Positions 7,957-19,623 of a DNA stretch of 22,730 nt are shown here, one piece after another. Each line of letters begins with the position of its first letter. Position 1 is the stretch's first letter. The stretch is taken from positions 1 to 22,730 of IMG/VR virus record IMGVR_UViG_3300047316_000185; one strand, 5' to 3'. Origin of the DNA: a virus. The notes under the pieces were generated by a model. The model made no database searches. It saw nothing but the letters and a program-made list of their open reading frames with translations, and was not told where the DNA came from. The translations under genes and the position numbers were made by a program.

Positions 7957-9470
7957 TCGTCATCCTCCAGCGCAGCGAAGAAGTCGACGTTGGCCGACAA
8001 CGCCAGGCCGGCCGCGTCGGCCGCGCCGACGATAGGCGCCAGGTCCGCGGCCAGTTCTCGGTTCCACCGATCGACCTCGGCGAAGAACGCCGACGCGCGC
8101 TCGGGCGCCGGCAGCCGCGCGAGGCTGGCGCGCTGGCGGGCGCGCGTGCGATCGATCGCCACCTGCAGCCGCGCCTCCGTGCCGGTGTCGCCGGTGCCAT
8201 CGGCCGCGTCTTCCGGGTCAGCGGTCGGATCGACGCCGGGCGCCGGTGGTGTCGGGTTCACGCTCGCATCGGACGGGCCGCCCTGCTGCGGCGCCAGGCG
8301 ATCCGCCGTGGGATCGTTCTTGATCGACGGCAGGTTCAGCCGGGCCCGGCCTTCGTTGGGTGTCATGATCGGCCGGCCGACCAGCACCTCGATCGCGGTG
8401 GCTTGTTCTTCGAAGCTGCCCGCGAGCTTGGACGCGATATTGAATTCGATGTAGACGCGATCCTGGTCGTCGCATTCCACGAGCAGCTGCCGCTCGATCT
8501 CCTGCACAATCATTTCGAGGGTGGGCCCGAGCGAGTCCTGGTACAGCTGCTTATGCTGTTCCTTGATGTTGCTGAAGGTGGCGTGGTCGAGGATGCCGAT
8601 CGACGGCTGCGGCACGTTGAATTCCGCGGCGGTCACCTCGCGGCGCAGCTTGCCGCCCTGGATAAACTCGGAGTCCCGCGGCGAAAACGCGGTCGGCTTG
8701 AACGACATCCCGTCTTCGAGCACCGCCGTCAGGCCGGCGTTCGCGCTGCCGCCGAAGCGCGCCTGCCACTGCTCGCGGAATTCTTTCTTCTGCGTCGGCG
8801 TCCACTTCGGCGCTTCCTTCGGCCGCTCGATGACACCCTCGTGCCGGCTGGCGTTGCGCCAGTAGTACTCGCGGTGCTTCGACGCCGCCTGGTCTTCGTT
8901 GACGATGGCCGCCAGCGTGTCGACGTGCGAGAGGCCCATCCGCGGGTTGATCGGGTTGTAGCCGTTGAAGTAGACGATCTCCGACGTGGGGAATTCGAGC
9001 TTGTGGCCGTCTTCGCTCGTCCAGCAGAACGAGGTGGGCAGCAGGCCGCCGGCCACGAACATCTGATCGGGCGGCAGGCGCACCAGGCCGATCGCCCGCC
9101 CGTCCGGCCCGCTGTAGCGGACCTTCAGCCAGTACGCATTCTTGTAAACGCCGAGGTCGCCCATCAGCGATTCAAACAGGCGGAACTGCGTGGTGGCCGG
9201 GTTCGGCTTCGCCAGCCACTGCGTCAGCTGGTGATCCGGCAGCCGCGTGCGATCGGTGTCGCTGACGCGGCGAAAGGCGTGGATGCCGAGCTGCGCGACG
9301 TTGCCGGCCAGGAAGTCGATCGGGATGCGCAGGTTCGGGTTCGCCGCGTAGAGCGCCGCGTACGCCTGGCGGGCCAGGCCGCTGGCGTTCGCATCGCGCC
9401 ACGAGGTCAGCGCCACCGGGCTCACATCCGGCGTCAGCGCCTGCAGCTGCCCGTAGGACTGCACGATCAC
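7953..9470 (-). CDS. Portal protein (HK97/lambda-like)
   Basis: The product is 505 residues from a GTG start (VIVQSYGQLQ) that overlaps the preceding stop as GTGA. Portal landmarks include NPNLRIPIDFLAGNVAQL in the N-terminal wing, a Y-K-N-A-Y-W strand, and a stem region with ITAAEFNVPQPSIG-like sequence (VTAAEFNVPQPSIGILDHAT). A clip/crown helix contains SIKNDPTADRL. The last 110 residues are an acidic, Pro-rich linker followed by helices. It forms the dodecameric DNA entry ring. A longer frame up to 9710 exists, but its extra N-terminus is low complexity and covers the small upstream gene, so the coupled GTG is preferred. Confidence 0.93.
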   Translation of the reverse strand: MIVQSYGQLQALTPDVSPVALTSWRDANASGLARQAYAALYAANPNLRIPIDFLAGNVAQLGIHAFRRVSDTDRTRLPDHQLTQWLAKPNPATTQFRLFESLMGDLGVYKNAYWLKVRYSGPDGRAIGLVRLPPDQMFVAGGLLPTSFCWTSEDGHKLEFPTSEIVYFNGYNPINPRMGLSHVDTLAAIVNEDQAASKHREYYWRNASRHEGVIERPKEAPKWTPTQKKEFREQWQARFGGSANAGLTAVLEDGMSFKPTAFSPRDSEFIQGGKLRREVTAAEFNVPQPSIGILDHATFSNIKEQHKQLYQDSLGPTLEMIVQEIERQLLVECDDQDRVYIEFNIASKLAGSFEEQATAIEVLVGRPIMTPNEGRARLNLPSIKNDPTADRLAPQQGGPSDASVNPTPPAPGVDPTADPEDAADGTGDTGTEARLQVAIDRTRARQRASLARLPAPERASAFFAEVDRWNRELAADLAPIVGAADAAGLALSANVDFFAALEDDE

Positions 9471-9649
9471 GGGAGCACCTGGTAGTAGCGCACCTGGCTG
9501 CGGTGCAGCACCACGTCGCCATCCGCCTTCACTTCGTTGTTCCCCGCCGACAGCGCGTAGACGTCGCGCAGCGTCAGCCACCCGCCCCGATAGGACCAGA
9601 GCACGCCCTTCAGCGCCTCGGTGTCCGAGGTCGTCAGGTTGACGATCAC
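9467..9649 (-). CDS. Small protein before portal
   Basis: The product is 60 residues from a GTG start reading VIVNLTTSDTEALKGVLWSY, with R-G-G-W-L-T-L-R and LHRSQVRYYQVLP at the end. Small beta-rich proteins of this shape (an I-V-N-L start, a W and an R-x-Q-V near the C-terminus) are frequent just before portal genes in HK97-like phages. The function is unknown. It overlaps the portal by GTGA. The reading frame is open upstream to 9700, but that part would run into the promoter region of the plus-strand gene, so the GTG is more likely. Confidence 0.65.
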   Translation of the reverse strand: MIVNLTTSDTEALKGVLWSYRGGWLTLRDVYALSAGNNEVKADGDVVLHRSQVRYYQVLP

Positions 9650-9775
9650 GCGCCGAAGTCGGCACGGTGGACGCCAGAAGCAGAGCCAGTCCCACAGCAC
9701 AGCGGTTCACGGCTCACGGTGCGGCCGGTCGGCGCGTTCGGGAAGTTTGCGTTCCTAAAGTGGGAGGCTTACACT

Positions 9776-9991
9776 ATGGGCCGTCGCATGGCCGAACGCC
9801 CTAACGGCCGCCCGCCGGTGAAACGCGGTGACCCTTCGGTCAGCGTTCACCTGCGCGTCCCAACCTCGCAGTACGACGCGGCCTACTCGCGCGCCGGCCG
9901 TGCCGGTGTCACCCTGCCGGAATTCATCCGCCGCGCCTCATGGGCCGCCTTCCGCCCGCCGGACGAGGACGGCGACGAGGACGAGGACTAA
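9776..9991 (+). CDS. Lone plus-strand ribbon-helix-helix-like protein
   Basis: The product is 71 residues, starting MGRRMAERPN, with an acidic tail of Asp/Glu repeats (DEDGDEDED). The middle reads DPSVSVHLRVPTSQYDAAYS followed by a helix and EFIRRASWAAF, which is the strand-helix-helix layout of Arc/MetJ-type DNA-binding proteins. A GGAGG ribosome binding site lies 8 bases before this ATG. A second ATG at 9788 is possible. The gene runs against all neighbours and its stop overlaps the end of the large terminase gene by 4 bases. It could repress a local promoter or serve as an antitoxin-like partner, but no toxin gene is adjacent. The family call is moderate because the fold is inferred from a short stretch. 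Confidence 0.7.
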   Translation: MGRRMAERPNGRPPVKRGDPSVSVHLRVPTSQYDAAYSRAGRAGVTLPEFIRRASWAAFRPPDEDGDEDED

Positions 9992-11688
9992 GCCACCACC
10001 AGGTCGGGATCGTCGGCCACGCCCGCGCTGGTGTCGAGCGTGGCGAGCTTGCGCGCAATCAGGCCGGCGATGATCGGGTCGATGCGCCCGCGGCTCTGCT
10101 TCTTCGTCGGGTAGATGTTGTCCTTCGTGTCGCGCTGCACCATCACGTTCGACGCGCAGTAGGTCAGCAGCGGATTGTGCCCGCCGTCGACCAGGCCATC
10201 GAGCACGTCTGCTTCGAAGTCCTTCGCCGGGCCGCTCATCTGCGCCATTGTCTGCGGCACTTCGACCACCTGGAAGCCATCGTCGCTCAGTTCGCGTTCC
10301 AGGTTGCCGGCGTTCCACGGATCGAAGCCCACCTGCTGCACGTTGCACACCGCGGCCGCCTCGTGCACGAAGGCCCGCACCTGCGCCTGGTCGATGCGGT
10401 TCCCCGGATTGGTGCGCAGGAAGCCGCGCTCCACCCACAGCGGATACGGCGCGCGATCCCGCAGCGCGCGATCCGCGAGCGTGTCAGCCGGCGTCAGGCA
10501 CCAGGCGACGTGATGCCAGGCGCGCTCGCCGTCGCGCGGCGGGAAGACCGCCACCACCGCGGTGAGGTCGATCTTCGAGGACATATCCACGCCGAGCCAG
10601 CAGTCGCGCCCGTGCAGGAAGTCGGGCAGGCACCACCGCCCCGCCAGGTTCCACACCGTTTGCCCGTGGCGCCAGCCATCGGCCGACAGCCAGGGTGAGG
10701 CGGAACTGACCCACACGTTCAGCCGCTTCTGCTTGAACGCCGCCGCCGCGGGTGGCATGTGGCGCGCCTTCGTCGCCAGCACGCGCAGATCGTCGGGAAG
10801 CACCGACACGCCGTAGTTCGGATTCGCCTTGCGCCAGGTCGCATCCTGCAGCCACCCGTCGCCCTCCAGGTCTTCGGGATCGGCGTGCGCGATGAACGCG
10901 AAGAAGCGATCATCGACCAGCACGCCATCGAGCACGCGGCAGGCGTAGTCATGCTGATCGCCGCAGGGCGAGATCGGATCGGTGCCGGCGGTTGTGATCT
11001 GGAAGTTGACCGGTTCCAGCCGGGCGCCCGTCGCCGTTTCCATGACGTCGATCAGGCCGCGGTTCTTCTGCGCGTGGAATTCATCGTTGATGATCAGATT
11101 CGGGTTCAGGCCATCGGTCGAATCGCGGTCAGCGCCAAGCGGCTCCAGCTTCGACGCGGTATCACCGCGCGACAGGTTCGCCGTCAGCACCGTGATGCGC
11201 GAGCGCAGGCCGCTCGACTGCACCAGGCGCTTGCAATCGTTGAAGACGATCTTCGCCTGCTCGCGCTTGGTGGCGATGCAGTAGCCTTCGGCGCCCGCCT
11301 CGCCGTCGAAGAACGACACGTAGAGCGCGACGATGGCCGCTTCGAGCGACTTGCCATTCTTGCGCGGGATCTCGTTGTAGCAGGTGCGGAAGCGCCGCAG
11401 CCCGCTGCGCATATGCACCCATCCGAACAACGAGCCGAGGCGGAACACCTGGTGCGGTTCCAGGTGCAGGTACTGGCCGGCCCACTGCTGGCCCTTGTAG
11501 TGGCGCAGCTTTTCCGCGAAGGCCACGAAGCGCAGGGCGCGCGGCAGGTCGAACCAGTACGGGAACGATCGCGTCGCCTCACGCCGTCGATCGCGCTGGT
11601 GCCGTTCGCACGCGAGCCGATGATAGCGGCCCGCCGGCACCCGCCGCGCGACGACGGCGGCGGCGTACGCATCGAGGGGATTGATCAC
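9988..11688 (-). CDS. Terminase large subunit
   Basis: The product is 566 residues. The ATPase domain carries the Walker A variant PRKNGKS (residues 108-114), typical of HK97-type terminases, and Walker B LIINDEFHA (198-206) with the catalytic Asp/Glu pair. The C-terminal nuclease domain starts with WLGVDMSSKIDLTA, where the Asp would bind metal, and has a further acidic VGFDPWNAGNLE strand. It pumps DNA into the procapsid and cuts concatemers. Start and small-subunit stop overlap (ATGA). The gene's end overlaps the plus-strand RHH-like gene. Length is normal. Confidence 0.96.
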   Translation of the reverse strand: MINPLDAYAAAVVARRVPAGRYHRLACERHQRDRRREATRSFPYWFDLPRALRFVAFAEKLRHYKGQQWAGQYLHLEPHQVFRLGSLFGWVHMRSGLRRFRTCYNEIPRKNGKSLEAAIVALYVSFFDGEAGAEGYCIATKREQAKIVFNDCKRLVQSSGLRSRITVLTANLSRGDTASKLEPLGADRDSTDGLNPNLIINDEFHAQKNRGLIDVMETATGARLEPVNFQITTAGTDPISPCGDQHDYACRVLDGVLVDDRFFAFIAHADPEDLEGDGWLQDATWRKANPNYGVSVLPDDLRVLATKARHMPPAAAAFKQKRLNVWVSSASPWLSADGWRHGQTVWNLAGRWCLPDFLHGRDCWLGVDMSSKIDLTAVVAVFPPRDGERAWHHVAWCLTPADTLADRALRDRAPYPLWVERGFLRTNPGNRIDQAQVRAFVHEAAAVCNVQQVGFDPWNAGNLERELSDDGFQVVEVPQTMAQMSGPAKDFEADVLDGLVDGGHNPLLTYCASNVMVQRDTKDNIYPTKKQSRGRIDPIIAGLIARKLATLDTSAGVADDPDLVVA

Positions 11689-12188
11689 TGCACCTTCAGC
11701 CCCGTGCGCGGCAGCGGTTGATCGAAGTCGGAGAAGGCATCACCGCCCGGCCCGGGCCCGTCACCGCTGACGCGCGAGCGCGACGACGGCGTGAGGCCGA
11801 GTTCTGGCCACAACCGCGCGCACGCCGCCAGCGCCTTCGAGGCGATCGACAGATACGGGTTCGGCATCGGATAGCCGCTCGGCGTCTTCACCACCATGCC
11901 GGCGGTGCGTACCTTCGCGGTCGCTTCCAGGTAGCGCGCCCATTCGACGCAGACCGCCACCAGCGCGGAGCGATCGGCTTCGCTGACCAGGCGCAGCCGG
12001 TGCAGCATCGGCGCGAGCCGGGCCCACTCTTTCAGCGCCAGCGTGTTGCCTTCCAGTTCGATGGGCGGCGGCGCATCGGCCGGCGCCGGCAGCGGCGGCG
12101 GCAGCGGTTCTGCGAGGTTGAGCGTGCGCTTCCCGGGATTGCCGAGCAGCACCCGCTGCCGCGTCGGATGTGGTTTGCGGCCCCTCAT
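11685..12188 (-). CDS. Terminase small subunit, P27 family
   Basis: The product is 167 residues, starting MRGRKPHPTRQRVLLGNPGK. The G-R-K-P...L-x-G-N-P-G-K-R start is the signature of the P27-type small terminase, and the LALKEWARLAPMLHRLRLVS helix and later DRSALVAVCVEWARYLEA are its helical core. It would recognise the packaging site and regulate the large subunit. The frame is open upstream, but residues before this ATG lie in the divergent promoter region of the plus-strand cluster, so this start is preferred. In related phages the HNH gene lies directly upstream of this gene. Here it is 6.7 kb away. Confidence 0.93.
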   Translation of the reverse strand: MRGRKPHPTRQRVLLGNPGKRTLNLAEPLPPPLPAPADAPPPIELEGNTLALKEWARLAPMLHRLRLVSEADRSALVAVCVEWARYLEATAKVRTAGMVVKTPSGYPMPNPYLSIASKALAACARLWPELGLTPSSRSRVSGDGPGPGGDAFSDFDQPLPRTGLKVQ

Positions 12189-12189
12189 A

Positions 12190-12219
12190 GAGCCTCGATC
12201 GTTAGCAATTGAGCCTCGA
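12190..12219 (+). promoter_or_regulatory. Upstream repeated element GAGCCTCGAT..TTAG (first copy)
   Basis: The bases GAGCCTCGATCGTTAG at 12190-12205 are followed by a second GAGCCTCGA at 12211-12219. A near copy (GAGCCTCGATTGCTAG) occurs at 13674-13689 upstream of the second promoter. The two copies lie 87 and 77 bases before their respective start codons. Such shared sequence could be an operator for one regulator, or only a leftover of duplication. The element also abuts the small terminase start on the other strand. Confidence 0.45.
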
Positions 12220-12240
12220 AGAAATAGTTGGCGATTGAGC

Positions 12241-12270
12241 TTGATAACCAGAGCGGTGAGGTTGTATTCT
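12241..12270 (+). promoter_or_regulatory. Sigma70-like promoter of plus-strand cluster, leaderless geometry
   Basis: TTGATA at 12241-12246 and TATTCT at 12265-12270 are separated by 18 bases. The start codon ATG begins at 12277, six bases after the -10 box, where transcription would be expected to begin. No ribosome binding site fits between. A second promoter at 13715-13744 repeats the same spacing and shares the core ACCAGAGCG between the boxes and GGTTGTA just before the -10. Confidence 0.65.
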
Positions 12271-12276
12271 CGGTGC

Positions 12277-12501
12277 ATGACGAAGACGACAGCGGCGGCG
12301 ACGACGGCGGCGGCGGACAACCAACTGCACGCCTTCCGCACCTTCCTCGGGCTGCCGCCCGACAGCGACACGGCGCCGGCCTGCGGCGCCGTCCTATCCG
12401 CGGCCTACAACGGCCGGGGAAAACCCGAATGCCGGATCTGCGCCGGCATCCTCCGTCGCGAGCGCGCCATCGCGCGCCGCGATCATCGGCGGGCCCGCTA
12501 G
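12277..12501 (+). CDS. Small Cys-containing protein, first gene of plus-strand cluster
   Basis: The product is 74 residues, starting MTKTTAAATTAAADNQ. A Thr/Ala-rich start leads into LHAFRTFLGLPPDSDTA and then a possible zinc knuckle (A-C-G-A-V... E-C-R-I-C-A-G) and an Arg-rich end. I do not recognise a family. The start codon is placed at the predicted transcription start, with no Shine-Dalgarno site, so it is probably translated from a leaderless message. The stop shares a base with a possible GTG start of the next gene. Confidence 0.6.
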   Translation: MTKTTAAATTAAADNQLHAFRTFLGLPPDSDTAPACGAVLSAAYNGRGKPECRICAGILRRERAIARRDHRRAR

Positions 12502-13750: not shown

Positions 13751-14743
13751 ATGGCAACGAAGACGACAACGGCCGACGCGCTGCGAGAAGCGCACGCGCG
13801 AGTCATCGACCGGATCGACTGCTACAACGAGTCGGTTGAAGCCGCCGCCGAGGCGGTGTATCCCGACTACGGCGGCCTGGCCTTCCGCACCGCGTTGATC
13901 TCTTACACCACCGGCACAAACCTTGAGGACAGCATGAACAGCATGATCGACACCACGCAATCGCAGACCTTCACCAGCCCCACCACCGCCGGCATCTTCG
14001 CCAGGCAGCTGCGCGCCGATGGCGCCGTGCGCGTCCGAGTGGCCGCCGGCAAGCGCGGCACGATGGTGGTCTACTGGCGCCCCACCGCCGTTTCCAAGAA
14101 CGCCGCGATCGGCCTGGCGAAGAAGGCGCGCACCGAGAAGGCGCCGTCGAAGGCCGCCGTCGCCGCGCGCCCGATGTGGGCCGCCGCGCCGGCCGCCGTC
14201 GCGCTGACCAGCAAAGAGCAGCGCGTGCTCGACGCCCTTGTGCGGAACGGCCGCGGCAACGGCGGCGACTTCGCCTGCGCGGAAGACATCGACACGAAAG
14301 CGCTGCAGCTGACTAAGCAGCAGTTCGGCGCGCTGCTGACCACCCTGCAGACGAAGGGCCGGATCGACGTCCACGTGGTTTATGTGAACGGATCGCTGAC
14401 GCGCGGCGACAAGGGCGATAAGGTTACGCAGGTGACCTTCCGCGACGTGCCGCCGGCCGCCGCTGCGCCGCAGACCTTCGACGCAGCCCTGGCGCACGGG
14501 AAGAAGATGAGCCGCCAGATCGCCCGCGACACCAAGCGCGCCGCGAAGCAGGCGGCGGCGGTCGACGCCACCGGCATGCCGATGGTCGACGGCAAGTTCA
14601 CGCGCACCGCGAAGGCGCCCGTCGCCGGCACCAACTGCACGAAGTGCGGCCACGATAACGGCGCCCGCATCGCGAAGCGTGGCGGCGGCGTCGACTGCCG
14701 CAACGCCGCGGCCTGCAGCCGGCGCCTGAAGGGCGGGAAGTAA
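13751..14743 (+). CDS. Winged-helix / zinc-ribbon protein of plus-strand cluster
   Basis: The product is 330 residues, starting MATKTTTADALREAHARVID at the predicted transcription start with no ribosome binding site. Residues 1-115 are mixed helix and strand and contain TFTSPTTAGIFARQLRADGA. Residues about 152-210 look like a winged helix (LTSKEQRVLDALVRNG, LTKQQFGALLTTLQTKGRID). A basic Ala/Lys linker leads to a C-terminal CX2C-X16-CX5C ribbon (Cys 296, 299, 316, 322). The layout suggests a nucleic-acid-binding or regulatory protein. The ribbon is shared with the 124-residue protein upstream. No catalytic motif is seen. The next gene follows after 3 bases. Confidence 0.7.
   Translation: MATKTTTADALREAHARVIDRIDCYNESVEAAAEAVYPDYGGLAFRTALISYTTGTNLEDSMNSMIDTTQSQTFTSPTTAGIFARQLRADGAVRVRVAAGKRGTMVVYWRPTAVSKNAAIGLAKKARTEKAPSKAAVAARPMWAAAPAAVALTSKEQRVLDALVRNGRGNGGDFACAEDIDTKALQLTKQQFGALLTTLQTKGRIDVHVVYVNGSLTRGDKGDKVTQVTFRDVPPAAAAPQTFDAALAHGKKMSRQIARDTKRAAKQAAAVDATGMPMVDGKFTRTAKAPVAGTNCTKCGHDNGARIAKRGGGVDCRNAAACSRRLKGGK
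14636..14716 (+). repeat. Zinc-ribbon coding repeat, copy 2
   Basis: This segment matches 12786-12866 (about 63 of 81 bases). It encodes the last Cys motif of the 330-residue protein. Both copies keep all four Cys and the G-x-D-N-x-A-R-I core. Confidence 0.7.
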
Positions 14744-14746
14744 GCC

Positions 14747-15097
14747 ATGCACGCCCCCAACCGCCAGGCGATCGCCGCGCTGAATGACGCCTTCCGCCGC
14801 ACGCTGCCCTTCGGTGGCGGCGTGCCCGGCCGCACCGTGATGACGCGCGGGATCGCCGCGCTGCCGTCGCGCACCGTCGCTGACATCCTGATGGCGGTGC
14901 GCCGCTTCAACACCTTCACGCCGGACAACGATCCGCACCTGGAGCATGACTTCGGCACCGTCACGATCGCCGGCGAGAAGTGCTTCTGGAAGATCGACTA
15001 CTACGAAACCGACGCCTGCGAATTCGGCTGCGATGACGCGGCCGACGTGGCGGCGTCCTACCGCGTGCTCACCGTGATGCTCGCGTCCGAATACTGA
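14747..15097 (+). CDS. DUF3768 family protein
   Basis: The product is 116 residues, starting MHAPNRQAIAALNDAFRRTL. Family hallmarks are present in order: GGGVPGRTVMTRGIAAL near residue 24, VRRFNTFTPDNDPHLEHDFG, GEKCFWKIDYYETD and the end YRVLTVMLASEY. DUF3768 proteins are small, of unknown function, and known mostly from alphaproteobacterial chromosomes, plasmids and prophages, which gives a hint about the host. The gene starts 3 bases after the previous stop and is followed by the last plus-strand gene after 21 bases. It is probably co-transcribed from the promoter at 13715. Confidence 0.85.
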   Translation: MHAPNRQAIAALNDAFRRTLPFGGGVPGRTVMTRGIAALPSRTVADILMAVRRFNTFTPDNDPHLEHDFGTVTIAGEKCFWKIDYYETDACEFGCDDAADVAASYRVLTVMLASEY

Positions 15098-15118
15098 CGT
15101 ATACTTCAGCGGTTGCAT

Positions 15119-15367
15119 ATGGCCAAGAAACCGAAGCGCAAAATCAGCACCGCCGCCGCCGCCCTCGGGCGCCTCGGCGGCCTGGCGAACACCGCCGCGC
15201 AGCGCCAGGCGCGGCAGCAGAACGGGGCGAACGGCGGCCGGCCGCGGCGCGTCTGCACGCGATGCCTGGAGCCGGTAGCCGGCGGCGGCGTCCACAAGGA
15301 TCGCGCCCTGGATGCCACCTGCGGCGGGCGCTTCTGGAAGTGGCAGAAGCCCAGCGAACGCGCCTAG
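15119..15367 (+). CDS. Small basic protein with Cys motif, last gene of plus-strand cluster
   Basis: The product is 82 residues, starting MAKKPKRKISTAAAALGRLG. The N-terminal half is basic and Ala/Gly-rich (LGGLANTAAQRQARQQNG). The second half has CTRCLEPVAGGG and a later C-G-G-R-F-W, a possible three-Cys metal site. A TATACT box at 15100-15105 may start some transcription close to the ATG, but no matching -35 box is visible. Two codons upstream (TTG at 15113) could start translation. The gene ends just before a strong terminator. Confidence 0.65.
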   Translation: MAKKPKRKISTAAAALGRLGGLANTAAQRQARQQNGANGGRPRRVCTRCLEPVAGGGVHKDRALDATCGGRFWKWQKPSERA

Positions 15368-15390
15368 CACCACCCGCCCGTCACCCTTCA

Positions 15391-15419
15391 CGCCCGGCCC
15401 GCGCCGGGCGTTTTCATTT
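15391..15419 (+). terminator. Intrinsic terminator of plus-strand cluster
   Basis: The inverted repeat CGCCCGGC (15391-15398) and GCCGGGCG (15403-15410) with a CCGC loop is followed by TTTTCATTT. This is a standard rho-independent terminator for the plus-strand genes. Its T tract overlaps the stop codon of the minus-strand cupin gene, so the two convergent units meet here. On the minus strand no T run follows the stem. Confidence 0.8.
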
Positions 15420-16112
15420 GGTGCGGATGCCGGCGTGCTGCGCGGCAGTCGCCGGCAGCTGGTCGACAATCGTTCGATTGAGCATCGGGTGCTCGTCATG
15501 GCTCGGCCCGAAGTCGCTGTCGGGATGCCACACGATGACGTCGAGGGGATCATCGATCGTGTGAAATGAATGCGCGTAGTCGGCGGGAATGATCCAGCCG
15601 GCGCCCGGCATCAGCGCCGTGTCGCCGTCAGCCGTGCGGCAGATCCCTTCGCCGCGGAGCACGAGGCCGATCCGATCCGAGGGATGCGTGTGCTCGGTCT
15701 GCGCGATCCCGGGCGGCAGGTGCAGCAAGTTCAGGCACGGATCGCCGCGCTGCGCCGGGCAGATTAGCAGCGAGTCCGAGCAGCCGTCGATGTAGTGCAG
15801 CCGGCCCGCGTCTTCGACCGGCCCGCCGGCCTGATACTGCCCGGTGTATTCGCGCGTGTAGATCAGCAGGCCGGCGCCCATGCGCAGCGAGGCGCCGCCA
15901 GGCACCTGCGCGTAGCAGCCGGGCCCCACCATCAGTTCGACGTGCGGCCACACGATGATCGTCCGCTTCGTCGGCAGCACGATCGCGGTGCCGGGCTCGG
16001 GCACCGTCGACTGCCCCGCGCCGTAGCTCCGCACGTGAACCGGCCCGGCCGGCGACGTCGCAATCTCGAAGGCCACGGGTTCGCTGCCGATGCGCCACGC
16101 CTTGAATGTCAT
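15414..16112 (-). CDS. Cupin-domain protein of ParB/PAPS-reductase cassette
   Basis: The product is 232 residues. The C-terminal domain has the two cupin motifs: PGIAQTEHTHPSDRIGLVLR with metal-binding His 141 and 143, and PGAGWIIPADYAHSF with His 181. The N-terminal half (PEPGTAIVLPTKRTIIVWPHVELM, then PGGASLRMGAG) looks like a second, degenerate barrel, so this may be a bicupin. After the barrel it keeps HPDSDFGPSHDEHPMLNRT. The Glu of the classic motif is replaced (S-D-R). Start overlaps the ParB-like stop (ATGA). It may be an oxygenase, isomerase or metabolite-binding partner of the PAPS-reductase-like protein. The substrate is unknown. Confidence 0.85.
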   Translation of the reverse strand: MTFKAWRIGSEPVAFEIATSPAGPVHVRSYGAGQSTVPEPGTAIVLPTKRTIIVWPHVELMVGPGCYAQVPGGASLRMGAGLLIYTREYTGQYQAGGPVEDAGRLHYIDGCSDSLLICPAQRGDPCLNLLHLPPGIAQTEHTHPSDRIGLVLRGEGICRTADGDTALMPGAGWIIPADYAHSFHTIDDPLDVIVWHPDSDFGPSHDEHPMLNRTIVDQLPATAAQHAGIRTK

Positions 16113-16630
16113 CCTGGTATCCAGCCTTTCGAGAAGCCGGCGCCGTCGCGCGACACGCGCTCGGGCATCCCCGCGCGATCGGCGAGGCGATCGACTTCCT
16201 CGGGTTCCATCTGCAGCAAGAAGCAGACGTCCTCGCTCGACTGCCCCGCCTCCAGTAGCTCGCGCACGATCGCCGCCATCGCGCGCACCGTGTGCTCACC
16301 GCGAGCGCGGTTGTGGCGAATCGTGCTCATCATGCGATGCGCCCGCGGGCCCACGATGCGCACCACCGGCACCAGGCCGCCCGTCAGCGCCGCCACCGCC
16401 GCATCCTCGCAGGCGATCCGCCAGCGGTGCTCACCGTCGATGATGATGAGCGGCGTGCTGCCGTCATCGAAGACCACGATCGGCTGCGTCCACCCGTCTT
16501 CGAGCAGCGAGATTTTGAGCAGCCGATACTCGGGCGGTGGCTGCGTGTTCGGGTTGTAGTCGTTGGCCATCAGTTCATCGACGTGCAGCCATTCAACACG
16601 CGAGATCGGCTGGTCAGCTGGTGATGCCAC
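16109..16630 (-). CDS. ParB/sulfiredoxin-like protein, IbrB-like
   Basis: The product is 173 residues from a GTG start that overlaps the PAPS-reductase-like gene by 17 bases. The ParB/Srx core reads DELMANDYNPN, LLKISLLEDGWTQPIVVF and IIIDGEHRWRIA, with GEHR at residues 66-69 as the nucleotide-binding or catalytic turn. It then has STIRHNRARGEHTVRAMAAI and ends GFSKGWIPG. N-D-Y-N-P-N and R-H-N-R-A-R-G are features of the ParB-like proteins encoded with IbrA-type PAPS reductases. No helix-turn-helix of a partitioning ParB follows, so plasmid-type DNA spreading is unlikely. Function is inferred from family and pairing. Confidence 0.85.
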   Translation of the reverse strand: MASPADQPISRVEWLHVDELMANDYNPNTQPPPEYRLLKISLLEDGWTQPIVVFDDGSTPLIIIDGEHRWRIACEDAAVAALTGGLVPVVRIVGPRAHRMMSTIRHNRARGEHTVRAMAAIVRELLEAGQSSEDVCFLLQMEPEEVDRLADRAGMPERVSRDGAGFSKGWIPG

Positions 16631-17798
16631 GGCGCCTCCGTTCGGCCAGCGCGACGTTCTGCATTTTCTGCATCTGGCGGTTGAACTTATTGCCGCCCAC
16701 CTTCGCCGCGATGTACAGCGTCTTCCAGCAGAACCCGCTGAGCGGATCGGGTTGCTCGTCAGGGATCGCCCGGCCGCCGGCCCGCGTGCGGTGACTGATC
16801 AGACACGCACGAATCGCCGCGGCCGCCTCGCGCTGACTGTCGGCGGGGAGCCCGCGCAGCGTCTGCATCGTCCACGCGCGCCAGGTCAGCCCGTGCGGCA
16901 GGTCTTCATCGCTCACGCCGACCGCGTACAGCTCCGTGTTCGCGTAGCGCGCCGCGGTGGCCGCGCCTGGCACGCGCGCCACGAGGACCGACCACAGCGA
17001 GGGCCAGCAGGTTTTGAACGTGTAGAGCCCGCGGATCGCCTGCTCCCCGAACGGCGGCGCGCACCGCTGCTGATGCCGAGGCATGCCGGCAGCGTCCATC
17101 ACGTCATACGCGCGGTTGTAGTCCCACCCGAACCGCGCGGGTGCGCGCCACACGTCTTCAGTCGACCAGTCGTAGATCGGGTAAATGTTCGTCGCGTGCG
17201 GGCGCGAGGTCGGGCGATCGGGTGACGCCGCGGCCTGCGCCGGCGCCATGTAGGCGAGCGGGCCGGACTTCGACGCAATCGCGCGGTGACGACTCATCGA
17301 CTCCTGCGCGCGAATGCCCATGATCACGGCGACGGTGCCGAGCGTCGGCGGCAGGATCGTGCGCACCTGCTCGGCGATCGACGTGCGCGTGAAGCCGGGA
17401 TAGTCGGTGATCGCCAGCGGCGGCAGCGGGCGCACCCACCGCTCGCGATCCTCGGGCGCCCAGCAGTACCAGTGCGGCGATGAATCCGAACAGGAATTGC
17501 GCTGCTTCAGCGGCACGCAGAACCAGCGGAACGCGACATCGGGCCGCTGCGCGACGCGCGCCATGTACTCGACTGTCTCCGGCGGGATCGCTTCTTCGTC
17601 GTACGAGAACACATCGAGCGGCAGGCGGCCGGCGCGTGTCGCCGCTTCGATCGCCAGGTGCAGGCACACCGTTGAATCCTTGCCGCCGCTGAAGCTGACG
17701 GCTACGTGGTCGAACGTGTCGAACACGTAGGCCAGCCGCTCCAGCGTCAGCTCGTAGCACGTCGCCGCCTGCCGAATCTTGCTATGGATTTTTCCCAT
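16614..17798 (-). CDS. PAPS-reductase-like PP-loop ATPase, IbrA-like
   Basis: The product is 394 residues. The PP-loop is SFSGGKDST (SGGKDS at 37-42), which binds ATP in the adenylation step. Next come YDEEAIPPETVEYM, a Cys-rich patch NSCSDSSPHWYCW followed by W-V-R, GIRAQESMSRHRAI and YPIYDWSTEDVW. The end is QMQKMQNVALAERRRRGITS. This order fits the IbrA/DUF3440 type rather than sulfate-assimilating CysH, which is shorter and ends in a catalytic E-C-G-I-H. It may activate sulfur or another group on a nucleotide, or act as a regulator. It overlaps the ParB-like genes on both sides (17 bases each), which means tight coupling. Confidence 0.88.
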   Translation of the reverse strand: MGKIHSKIRQAATCYELTLERLAYVFDTFDHVAVSFSGGKDSTVCLHLAIEAATRAGRLPLDVFSYDEEAIPPETVEYMARVAQRPDVAFRWFCVPLKQRNSCSDSSPHWYCWAPEDRERWVRPLPPLAITDYPGFTRTSIAEQVRTILPPTLGTVAVIMGIRAQESMSRHRAIASKSGPLAYMAPAQAAASPDRPTSRPHATNIYPIYDWSTEDVWRAPARFGWDYNRAYDVMDAAGMPRHQQRCAPPFGEQAIRGLYTFKTCWPSLWSVLVARVPGAATAARYANTELYAVGVSDEDLPHGLTWRAWTMQTLRGLPADSQREAAAAIRACLISHRTRAGGRAIPDEQPDPLSGFCWKTLYIAAKVGGNKFNRQMQKMQNVALAERRRRGITS

Positions 17799-18459
17799 TC
17801 GCTTCGAGCCAGGCGGTGAGCGCGGCGGTCAGCGCGGCGCCGGTGGTGATGACGGCGAAGACGTTGCGCGCGTGGCGCAGCGCGCCGCGCACGATCCGCT
17901 CCTGGTCGACCGTGAGCGGGCAGGCGAATGTCTGGTAGTCGCCGGCCTGGCCATCGCCGGCAGGAGCGGCCGCGGTCGGTTCGGCGCTGGCCATGTCGGC
18001 CACGTCGGCCGCGGCACCGCGCGACAAGAGCGCCGCTTCTTCCTCGGCCGTCCAGAACGGGCGCAGGTCGAGGCCCGCGGCAGCGTCGGCCGCCAGCGCG
18101 GAGTCATCCCATTCCGAGAGGTCGCTGCTGCGGTTGTCGTACAGCGCCAGGTCACGCTTCATCTCGGGCGTGAGCCCGCGGCGGCGGATGGCGACGAGGG
18201 TGTCGCCGTCGACGTCGACAATCTGCAGCTTCGAGATACCGGCACCAGGCGCCGCGCTGACCACGCCGTTGCCGGCGAGCACGGTGTTGTCTTCATCGAT
18301 GACGATCGAACGCGCGGTGCCGACACGCCGCAAGCTGGCGGTGATCATCTCGACGTTCCGGGCCGGATGCCGGCGGCGGTTGTCGGGATCGGGCCGGAGG
18401 TCGGCCACGGTGCCGGCGGTGGCCGGCGCAGGTGTCGCCGTAACGGGGGTTCTGGCCAT
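17782..18459 (-). CDS. ParB-like nuclease-domain protein (first in cassette)
   Basis: The product is 225 residues, starting MARTPVTATPAPATAGTVAD with GGAG upstream. The ParB core has LRPDPDNRRRH, NVEMITASLRRVG, IVIDEDNTVLAGNGVVSAA, then RRGLTPEMKRDLALYDNR and SEWDDSALAAD. The usual GERR/GHxR turn is replaced by GNGVV (63-67), a variant common among phage ParB-like proteins that lie next to methylases or sulfur-transfer genes. The Ala-rich C-terminus ends in helices, not in a DNA-binding HTH. A TTG six bases earlier could also start it. It is the first gene of the four-gene cassette and likely shares its promoter. Confidence 0.8.
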   Translation of the reverse strand: MARTPVTATPAPATAGTVADLRPDPDNRRRHPARNVEMITASLRRVGTARSIVIDEDNTVLAGNGVVSAAPGAGISKLQIVDVDGDTLVAIRRRGLTPEMKRDLALYDNRSSDLSEWDDSALAADAAAGLDLRPFWTAEEEAALLSRGAAADVADMASAEPTAAAPAGDGQAGDYQTFACPLTVDQERIVRGALRHARNVFAVITTGAALTAALTAWLEANGKNP

Positions 18460-18562
18460 GCTCAAGCGGCTCCAGGCGGTTCCGCGGCGTGGGTGGCCGC
18501 TACCCTACCGGCCGGCCAGGCGCCCATCCTGGCGGCCAAGAGGCGAACGGGTGTCAGGGATT

Positions 18563-18604
18563 TGACCCCCCCTGTCGAATTACGCGGAGGGTCAAGGGGG
18601 GTCA
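18563..18604. repeat. Inverted repeat of C/G runs, candidate packaging or regulatory region
   Basis: TGACCCCCC (18563-18571) and GGGGGGTCA (18596-18604) form arms around a 24-base spacer that itself contains GAGGGTCAA. A further C8 run lies at about 18650-18657. This stretch has no convincing gene. Similar G-run plus TCAAATCCC sequences occur near terminase and HNH genes of other phages, so a cos-type site is possible. I have no direct evidence for cutting. Confidence 0.4.
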
Positions 18605-18922: not shown

Positions 18923-19297
18923 TCACCATCGCGGCCCGCGGTGCGCGTCCTTCGCCACGTTGCACGCGGTGCAGAGCGACTGATGGTTCGCGGGATCGTC
19001 ACGTGCGCCGCCGTCCCGCAACGCGCGAATGTGGTCGGTGACTGTGGCTCGCGTGCGCAGCCCGCGCTGTACGCAGCGGCTGTGCGTGCTGTGCAGCTGG
19101 CCGTCCTGCTGCTGCCCGCACCACGGGAAGGTCTGCAGCCAGGCGCGGGAATAACGTGCCCATTCGGCGGTGTAGCCACGAGATCCGGCGTTGCCTCTGC
19201 TGGCATCCCTGGCGCGCTGGCAGTGGTAGCACCTGGAAAATACCAGGCGCCGGCACCGAGGGCAGGGTCGCTGTGGTGCGGTGGGCATCGAACGCAT
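18923..19297 (-). CDS. HNH endonuclease
   Basis: The product is 124 residues from the ATG at 19297 (MRSMPTAPQR). A zinc ribbon CPRC...CYHC at the N-terminus is followed by GYTAEWARYSRAWLQTFPWC. The nuclease core has VTDHIRALRDGG (general base His), DPANHQSLC (Asn and His) and CTACNVAKD. Such HNH proteins are encoded next to terminases in HK97-like phages, where they are needed for cos cleavage. ATG codons at 19312 and 19351 could add 5 or 18 residues; the last would put the parS site inside the gene. The separation from the terminase genes is unusual. Confidence 0.9.
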   Translation of the reverse strand: MRSMPTAPQRPCPRCRRLVFSRCYHCQRARDASRGNAGSRGYTAEWARYSRAWLQTFPWCGQQQDGQLHSTHSRCVQRGLRTRATVTDHIRALRDGGARDDPANHQSLCTACNVAKDAHRGPRW

Positions 19298-19327
19298 TGA
19301 CTGTACTCTCATGGTCAAGCTACCAGG

Positions 19328-19343
19328 TGTTTCACGTGGAACA
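19328..19343 (-). promoter_or_regulatory. Perfect bacterial-type parS site
   Basis: On the minus strand the bases are TGTTCCACGTGAAACA, which fits the chromosomal ParB-binding consensus TGTTNCACGTGAAACA at every position. The site lies near the junction of two genes, outside the HNH gene if that starts at 19297 or 19312. Other CACGTG hexamers in the window lack the flanking TGTT/AACA arms. A host ParB would be expected to load here. Confidence 0.85.
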
Positions 19344-19350
19344 CTGGCCA

Positions 19351-19623
19351 TCAGAACGGGTCACCGGGGGCGATGGTCAGCACGCCGAACAGCACCTGGT
19401 AGGCGGCGTGGTCTGCACCTGGCGCGCGGTAGTGCTGGCCGTGCGCGTTGCGCAGGTAGCGCCACACGTAGCCGTGAATGCCGTCTTCACAGAACACCGC
19501 GCGTGAGCTATCACGGGTCACGTCGACGCTGCCGAGGTAGACGTGCAGCACCTCGCCGGTGGTGGCCAGGTGTGCGCGCCAGGTCGGCACGTCGAGCCAG
19601 GTGATCAGCCGCGCCTCCGTCAT
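19351..19623 (-). CDS. Unknown small protein downstream of replication gene
   Basis: The product is 90 residues, starting MTEARLITWLDVPTWRAHLA. It overlaps the replication-protein stop (ATGA). Alternating short strands (GEVLHVYLGSVDVT, GYVWRYLRN) suggest a compact alpha/beta protein without membrane or Cys motifs. It is not recognised. Its coupling to the replication-like gene suggests a DNA-processing context only. The frame is open upstream but would lie inside that gene. Confidence 0.65.
   Translation of the reverse strand: MTEARLITWLDVPTWRAHLATTGEVLHVYLGSVDVTRDSSRAVFCEDGIHGYVWRYLRNAHGQHYRAPGADHAAYQVLFGVLTIAPGDPF

Follow-up and report, generated by a model that had tools for sequence, protein, structure and literature searches.

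The window analysed here is the entire IMG/VR record IMGVR_UViG_3300047316_000185, a tailed-phage fragment of 22,730 bases that encodes terminase, portal, head and tail proteins. An earlier note, made from the sequence alone, had pointed to a cassette of four tightly coupled genes in this window, here called ParB1, IbrA, IbrB and cupin. From upstream to downstream the cassette consists of:

17782..18459, minus strand: ParB1, a ParB-like protein of 225 amino acids (phrog_620/498/723), kin to the N-terminal domain of phage ParB-DNA methyltransferases and with a C-terminal tail of its own
16614..17798, minus strand: IbrA, a PP-loop (PAPS-reductase-superfamily) ATP pyrophosphatase with DUF3440 (Pfam, PHROG, AlphaFold2, Foldseek, conservation)
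16109..16630, minus strand: IbrB, of the ParB/Srx superfamily (Pfam, PHROG, motif conservation)
15414..16112, minus strand: a bicupin of the metal type (Cupin_2, AlphaFold2, Foldseek, conservation)

The observation of four overlapping genes is confirmed. ParB1/IbrA and IbrA/IbrB overlap by 17 base pairs (bp) each and IbrB/cupin by 4 bp (ATGA), as in the range of 4-17 bases given by the note. ParB1 starts with ATG, a TTG being present at 18465, and IbrB starts with GTG with GGAGG upstream. A sister contig (L002; L numbers denote the loci compared) has the identical gene order and also the IbrB/cupin ATGA overlap, at an identity to the window of 64% for IbrA and 59% for the cupin.

Conservation of the four genes as a unit

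A scan of viral contigs with a single cupin sequence gave no relatives. Using a two-sequence cupin alignment as query, 191 viral relatives were obtained, and 80 loci were kept. All four genes are present in 68 of these 80 cupin-anchored loci, a count made on loci from pattern-based scans that were ranked by similarity, with near-copies counted and many flanks short. The other 12 are without one or more cassette genes and include contigs that start inside or beside the cupin gene (L084, L094, L099). The genes occur in the orders ParB-IbrA-IbrB-cupin, ParB-cupin-IbrA-IbrB and cupin-ParB-IbrA-IbrB, and because the linkage survives this rearrangement it argues for a joint function. ParB1-IbrA-IbrB-cupin is a conserved unit in many uncultivated bacterial viruses. 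The earlier note had taken the genes to act as one unit, to be doubted if a neighbourhood search found the four families together only rarely; co-occurrence is common, and the claim is supported.

Among IbrA-anchored loci, 76 of 80 hold IbrA and IbrB only. On the IbrA tree, in which L128 and L138 sit on a long branch, the presence of a cupin requires 2 changes, compared with about 18 when the labels are shuffled, and the cupin-linked IbrAs form nearly one clade. The exception close to the window is L194, which is without a cupin and has a pentapeptide-repeat gene (8277-9698) directly after IbrB in the cupin's place. A second PP-loop protein is present in several cassettes, in some of them together with a class-II glutamine amidotransferase (L086, L090-L092, L157; Pfam-confirmed in L157 only, with weak matches in the others), and in L117 and L141 there is a radical SAM gene along with a second ParB. 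In L158 a gene with a GIIDGEGSI-type homing-endonuclease motif at its start (2381-2902) is inserted between IbrA and IbrB.

No record of the isolated-phage collection was matched by two cupin queries. ParB1, IbrA and IbrB are found together in two kinds of isolated phage, but with no cupin. Mycobacterium phage Akoma, which we take to be a cluster B3 mycobacteriophage, encodes ParB1 as gp1 (hidden Markov model match of 2e-18), IbrA as gp4 and IbrB as gp5 directly before the terminase gp6; two small open reading frames (ORFs) of no known family (gp2 and gp3, L277:690-1072) separate ParB1 from IbrA, and 51 records cover at least 80% of the stretch from ParB1 to the terminase. In Rhizobium phage RHph_I4, IbrA and IbrB are accompanied by two ParB1-like genes. 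A 'putative DNA methyltransferase' beside its IbrA (L275:4019-4717, EVC24_114) was considered as support for a link to DNA modification and dropped, since the protein is a ParB with a C-terminal tail and no methylase motif. From its sequence it has probably been misannotated from ParB-methylase fusions.

Properties of the four proteins

IbrA matches the Pfam families PAPS_reduct (5.7e-13, 49.7 bits, cut-off 22.5) and DUF3440 (9.6e-13, 48.7 bits, cut-off 25), and phrog_2302 at 3.6e-84 places it in the IbrA family. IbrB matches ParB_N (9.8e-7) and phrog_2159 (6.7e-57), and with a ParB_N domain beside IbrA it belongs to the IbrB family; these matches uphold the earlier assignment of the two as an IbrA-like PP-loop protein and an IbrB-like ParB/Srx protein. 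Identity with DndC was rejected for IbrA (TIGR03183, 25.5 bits against a cut-off of 290.4), as was identity with the PAPS reductase CysH (NF002537, 23.9 bits against 154), and the IbrA translation contains no motif like the C-terminal ECGLH-type catalytic cysteine of CysH.

The SGGKDS motif of IbrA lies at residues 37-42, and the PP-loop and GIRxxES residues are invariant. Of two conserved cysteines, C94 is present in 39/39 and C103 in 37/39 of the cassette IbrAs. IbrAs from loci with IbrA and IbrB only mostly have C94 and C112. The cysteine pair is compatible with thiol chemistry without proving it. An AlphaFold2 model of IbrA (mean predicted local distance difference test score, pLDDT, 90.9) has FAD synthase, TilS, CysH and CysD as Foldseek neighbours. 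Judged from sequence and alignment length, it is the N-terminal PP-loop part that matches; the DUF3440 part at the C-terminus is without a clear match. FAD synthase, TilS and CysD transfer adenosine monophosphate (AMP) or activate with it, and for this reason we infer from the model an adenylation step, which would make IbrA an adenylation-type PP-loop enzyme.

IbrB carries the motifs DGEHR (65-69) and RHNRARGEH (105-113), as judged from conservation in 89 sequences, and its family retains DG[F/E/Y]HR and RHNRARG. Phage matches to IbrA and IbrB coincide almost host by host. The pair (phrog_2302/phrog_2159) is known from many phages and bacteria, where the two families are likewise adjacent, with DG[E/F/Y]HR in IbrB and SGGKDS plus DUF3440 in IbrA. 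The window differs from the plain pair in adding ParB1 and the bicupin, and its IbrA falls in a clade of its own, which has C94/C103 and not C94/C112.

ParB1 has no Pfam match; in PHROGs it matches phrog_620, phrog_498 and phrog_723, of which phrog_498 is a DNA methyltransferase family composed of ParB-N6/N4 DNA methyltransferase fusions. Among 85 close relatives of ParB1, 46 are long proteins whose tail has, at an almost fixed offset, a DPPY-type motif, and both of the two that were checked with Pfam match N6_N4_Mtase. ParB1 itself, at 225 amino acids, has no methylase domain by Pfam and is therefore not such a fusion. Against the curated cut-off of TIGR00180 (ParB/RepB/Spo0J partition, 58.45 bits), IbrB scores 15.9 and ParB1 has no match. 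The 'GNGVV turn' to which the earlier note had drawn attention is present in ParB1 but is not special, AGNGV- being usual in the ParB-methyltransferase relatives.

The cupin matches Cupin_2 (1.9e-8), and its AlphaFold2 model (pLDDT 95.8) has a bicupin fold, which agrees with the label (bi)cupin; all of the conserved histidines are within the C-terminal barrel. H141, H143, H181, H196, H208, R147 and C111 are invariant in 56 viral and cellular sequences and C126 is nearly so. H141 and H143 form the HxH motif, and R147 is invariant where a glutamate is usual. Taken with the fold, the invariant histidines H141, H143 and H181 point to a metal-dependent cupin. The additional metal-dependent step that the note had seen in the cupin, absent from plain IbrAB pairs, thus corresponds to a conserved added component that is probably metal-binding. 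Foldseek neighbours are EF2996, ureidoglycine aminohydrolase, BacB, AerE and gentisate/salicylate dioxygenases. As their identity is only about 10-16%, no specific reaction can be assigned.

The slot before the terminase

The cassette lies in the following surroundings:

18923..19351, minus strand: HNH endonuclease upstream of the cassette (PF01844, phrog_589)
15390..15411, no strand assigned: terminator-like hairpin with its T tract on the plus strand, which ends the cassette operon and lies between convergent operons
11685..12371, minus strand: terminase small subunit (PF05119), the true start probably being downstream of the ORF start
9988..11688, minus strand: terminase large subunit (phrog_9, 1.9e-149)

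A hairpin is found in L002 at the matching position. Convergent plus-strand genes at 13751-15367, one of them for a DUF3768 protein (14747-15097), separate the cassette from the terminase, and at least 14747-15097 and 15113-15367 are kept in L002 in unchanged relative orientation. Upstream of ParB1, at 18562-18604, are the inverted repeats TTGACCCCCC/GGAGGGTCAA and TGACCCCCCCTG/CAAGGGGGGTCA, which could be an operator or a ParB site. Scans of the window for transfer RNAs and Rfam families gave no match, and PADLOC gave only weak matches to defence systems.

Of 32 large ORFs that follow dereplicated cassettes and were scanned with Pfam, 14 match the GpA nuclease, 7 Terminase_6C, 4 the TerL nuclease and 2 Terminase_3. 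The cassette is thus followed by large terminases that belong to several Pfam types. One terminase large subunit of the GpA type (L101:3791-6865) appears to contain an intein, with typical start and end motifs within the ATPase region.

Phages with a terminase large subunit 66-70% identical to that of the window have one of two occupants in the slot before the terminase genes terS and terL, either a ParB-methyltransferase (L198, L203, L208, L223, L255) or the cassette (L082, L085). In L084 (71% identical) the contig is cut and the cupin alone is visible. The arrangement in the relatives is ParB-methyltransferase followed by terS and terL, in some with a preceding HNH gene, and that in the lineage of the window is HNH, ParB-IbrA-IbrB-cupin, terS and terL. 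From this comparison of gene orders we infer, although not in an airtight manner, that a DNA methyltransferase has been exchanged for IbrA, IbrB and the cupin. The phrog_498 fusions thus share with the cassette a homologous ParB domain and the same slot, and differ in their methylase domain, in place of which the window has IbrA, IbrB and the cupin.

Function of the cassette

Our preferred reading, to which we give a rough probability of 0.45, is that the four genes belong to one pathway for chemical modification of the phage's own DNA, acting between replication and packaging and most likely serving to evade host restriction. The basis of this reading is the co-conservation of the genes, the folds, the invariant residues and the genomic slot. 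The coherent IbrA clade, the three-gene version before the terminase in Akoma and the accessory PP-loop, glutamine amidotransferase and radical SAM genes also speak for it. In such a pathway, ParB1 and IbrB, with their ParB/Srx fold, would bind and remodel DNA with nucleoside triphosphate (NTP), and IbrA would spend ATP on adenylating the target atom, either on the base or on the group being attached. C94 and C103 of IbrA may carry sulfur or serve as nucleophile, and the metal bicupin would make or finish the attached group. In those cassettes that have them, the second PP-loop protein and the class-II glutamine amidotransferase would be the source of the ammonia needed for an amide or amine. 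A more specific form of this proposal is put forward tentatively and with some doubt. It is a hypermodification pathway, so far undescribed, that would use a PP-loop enzyme, a metal bicupin and two ParB/Srx proteins, optionally with the second PP-loop protein and glutamine amidotransferase, to add a new amide-, amine- or sulfur-bearing group to DNA before packaging.

Phage genomes repeatedly contain 'PAPS reductases' of the IbrA type, which PHROGs classes among the auxiliary metabolic genes. The linkage to ParB and bicupin, the slot at the terminase and the DNA methyltransferase as alternative occupant argue that at least this IbrA clade acts on DNA and not in sulfate assimilation. The earlier note had found a sulfur- or nucleotide-dependent DNA modification plausible. 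DNA modification as such gains from the pre-terminase slot and from the ParB-methyltransferase found there in close relatives; the phosphorothioate form is not supported, as IbrA falls well short of the DndC cut-off and the genes scanned in the fragment gave no match to any other Dnd gene.

Known modification systems offer a parallel. Their enzymes have partners from the ParB superfamily, DndB in the case of DndC and DpdB in that of DpdA (PMC12839542, PMC10853773). Dnd phosphorothioation shares with the cassette a PP-loop enzyme and a ParB-superfamily partner, but has no cupin, and the window genes scanned, from a contig that is a fragment and in which not every small ORF was scanned, gave no match to dndD or dndE. 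In Dpd 7-deazaguanine modification a ParB-like ATPase is proposed to support base insertion (PMC12839542); no DpdA of the TGT type was found among the window genes scanned. The parallel to the ParB proteins of Dnd and Dpd is an analogy and not membership.

Several points weigh against the preferred reading. DNA is a presumed substrate, no modified base having been seen, and the view of further genes for nucleotide modification is limited to parts of phage genomes. The IbrAs used for comparison were chosen by similarity to the IbrA of the window, and many flanks are short. ParB1-like proteins without a methylase domain are also found near terminases alone (L218, L220), and the slot may therefore belong to ParB1 rather than to modification. 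Finally, cellular relatives of the cupin adjoin asparagine-synthetase-like or pyridoxal-phosphate (PLP) genes, which suggests small-molecule chemistry.

This last point leads to the main rival, which we consider unlikely. Here the cassette would make or modify a small molecule, nucleotide, RNA or peptide, with cupin and PP-loop protein as a biosynthetic pair and the ParBs as NTP-using enzymes or kinases. In 30 cellular cupin loci, 10/66 genes within 700 bp have an SGGxDS motif, against 2/204 beyond 2.5 kb, a comparison made with a naive gene caller on related genomes whose p-value is indicative only. Some of these neighbours are asparagine-synthetase domains (Asn_synthase with glutamine amidotransferase) and others an SGGIDST PP-loop protein, while 11 cyanobacterial cupin loci share one neighbour family, of which the two members scanned are threonine-aldolase-like. 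BacB and AerE, from natural-product pathways, and ureidoglycine aminohydrolase among the Foldseek neighbours of the cupin fit the same explanation, as do the second PP-loop protein and glutamine amidotransferase of some phage cassettes. Two ParB-family proteins and a slot shared with a DNA methyltransferase before the terminase are, on the other hand, hard to explain without DNA.

Among the cellular loci, several bacteria (L184, L188, L190, L191 and others) have a cupin gene that shares a few bases with the gene for an SGGIDST PP-loop protein without a Pfam match, and the two look like an undescribed biosynthetic pair. One cupin homologue on a Paraburkholderia plasmid has a methyltransferase-like and not a PP-loop neighbour.

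Counter-defence without DNA modification, by ParB/Srx and PP-loop proteins that consume or alter nucleotides or signals of host immunity, is improbable. ParB/Srx NTPases and nucleases do occur in conflict systems (PMC12839542, PMC10853773), and the cassette is accessory, being present in some relatives only; yet it sits among packaging and not early genes, and the exchange of its slot with a DNA methyltransferase also counts against this explanation. If anything slightly less probable is a regulatory role, in which IbrA, IbrB and ParB1 would co-activate late or prophage genes and the cupin would sense a ligand. In its favour, many phages have these proteins annotated as 'co-activator of prophage gene expression', and in a metatranscriptome ibrA was one of the phage genes overexpressed after carbadox (PMC5550749). 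The invariant PP-loop, GIRxxES and cupin histidines indicate catalysis instead, the cassette is placed with packaging genes, and besides ParB no DNA-binding regulator fold was found. That four unrelated morons lie together by chance is very hard to believe, being contradicted by the 68 of 80 cupin loci with all four genes in shuffled orders and by the coherence of the IbrA tree.

In the open-access literature searched, we found no biochemical study of IbrA/IbrB, DUF3440 or a PAPS reductase with ParB. IbrAB pairs are known; for the cassette with ParB1 and bicupin, and for the exchange of its slot with a DNA methyltransferase, no description was found there. The DNA-modification reading turns a vague IbrA annotation into a testable claim, and the three-gene version is present in laboratory phages (Akoma and its kin, on M. 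smegmatis). If the reading is true, many uncultivated phages would have in the cassette a DNA modification of new chemistry that probably acts against restriction.

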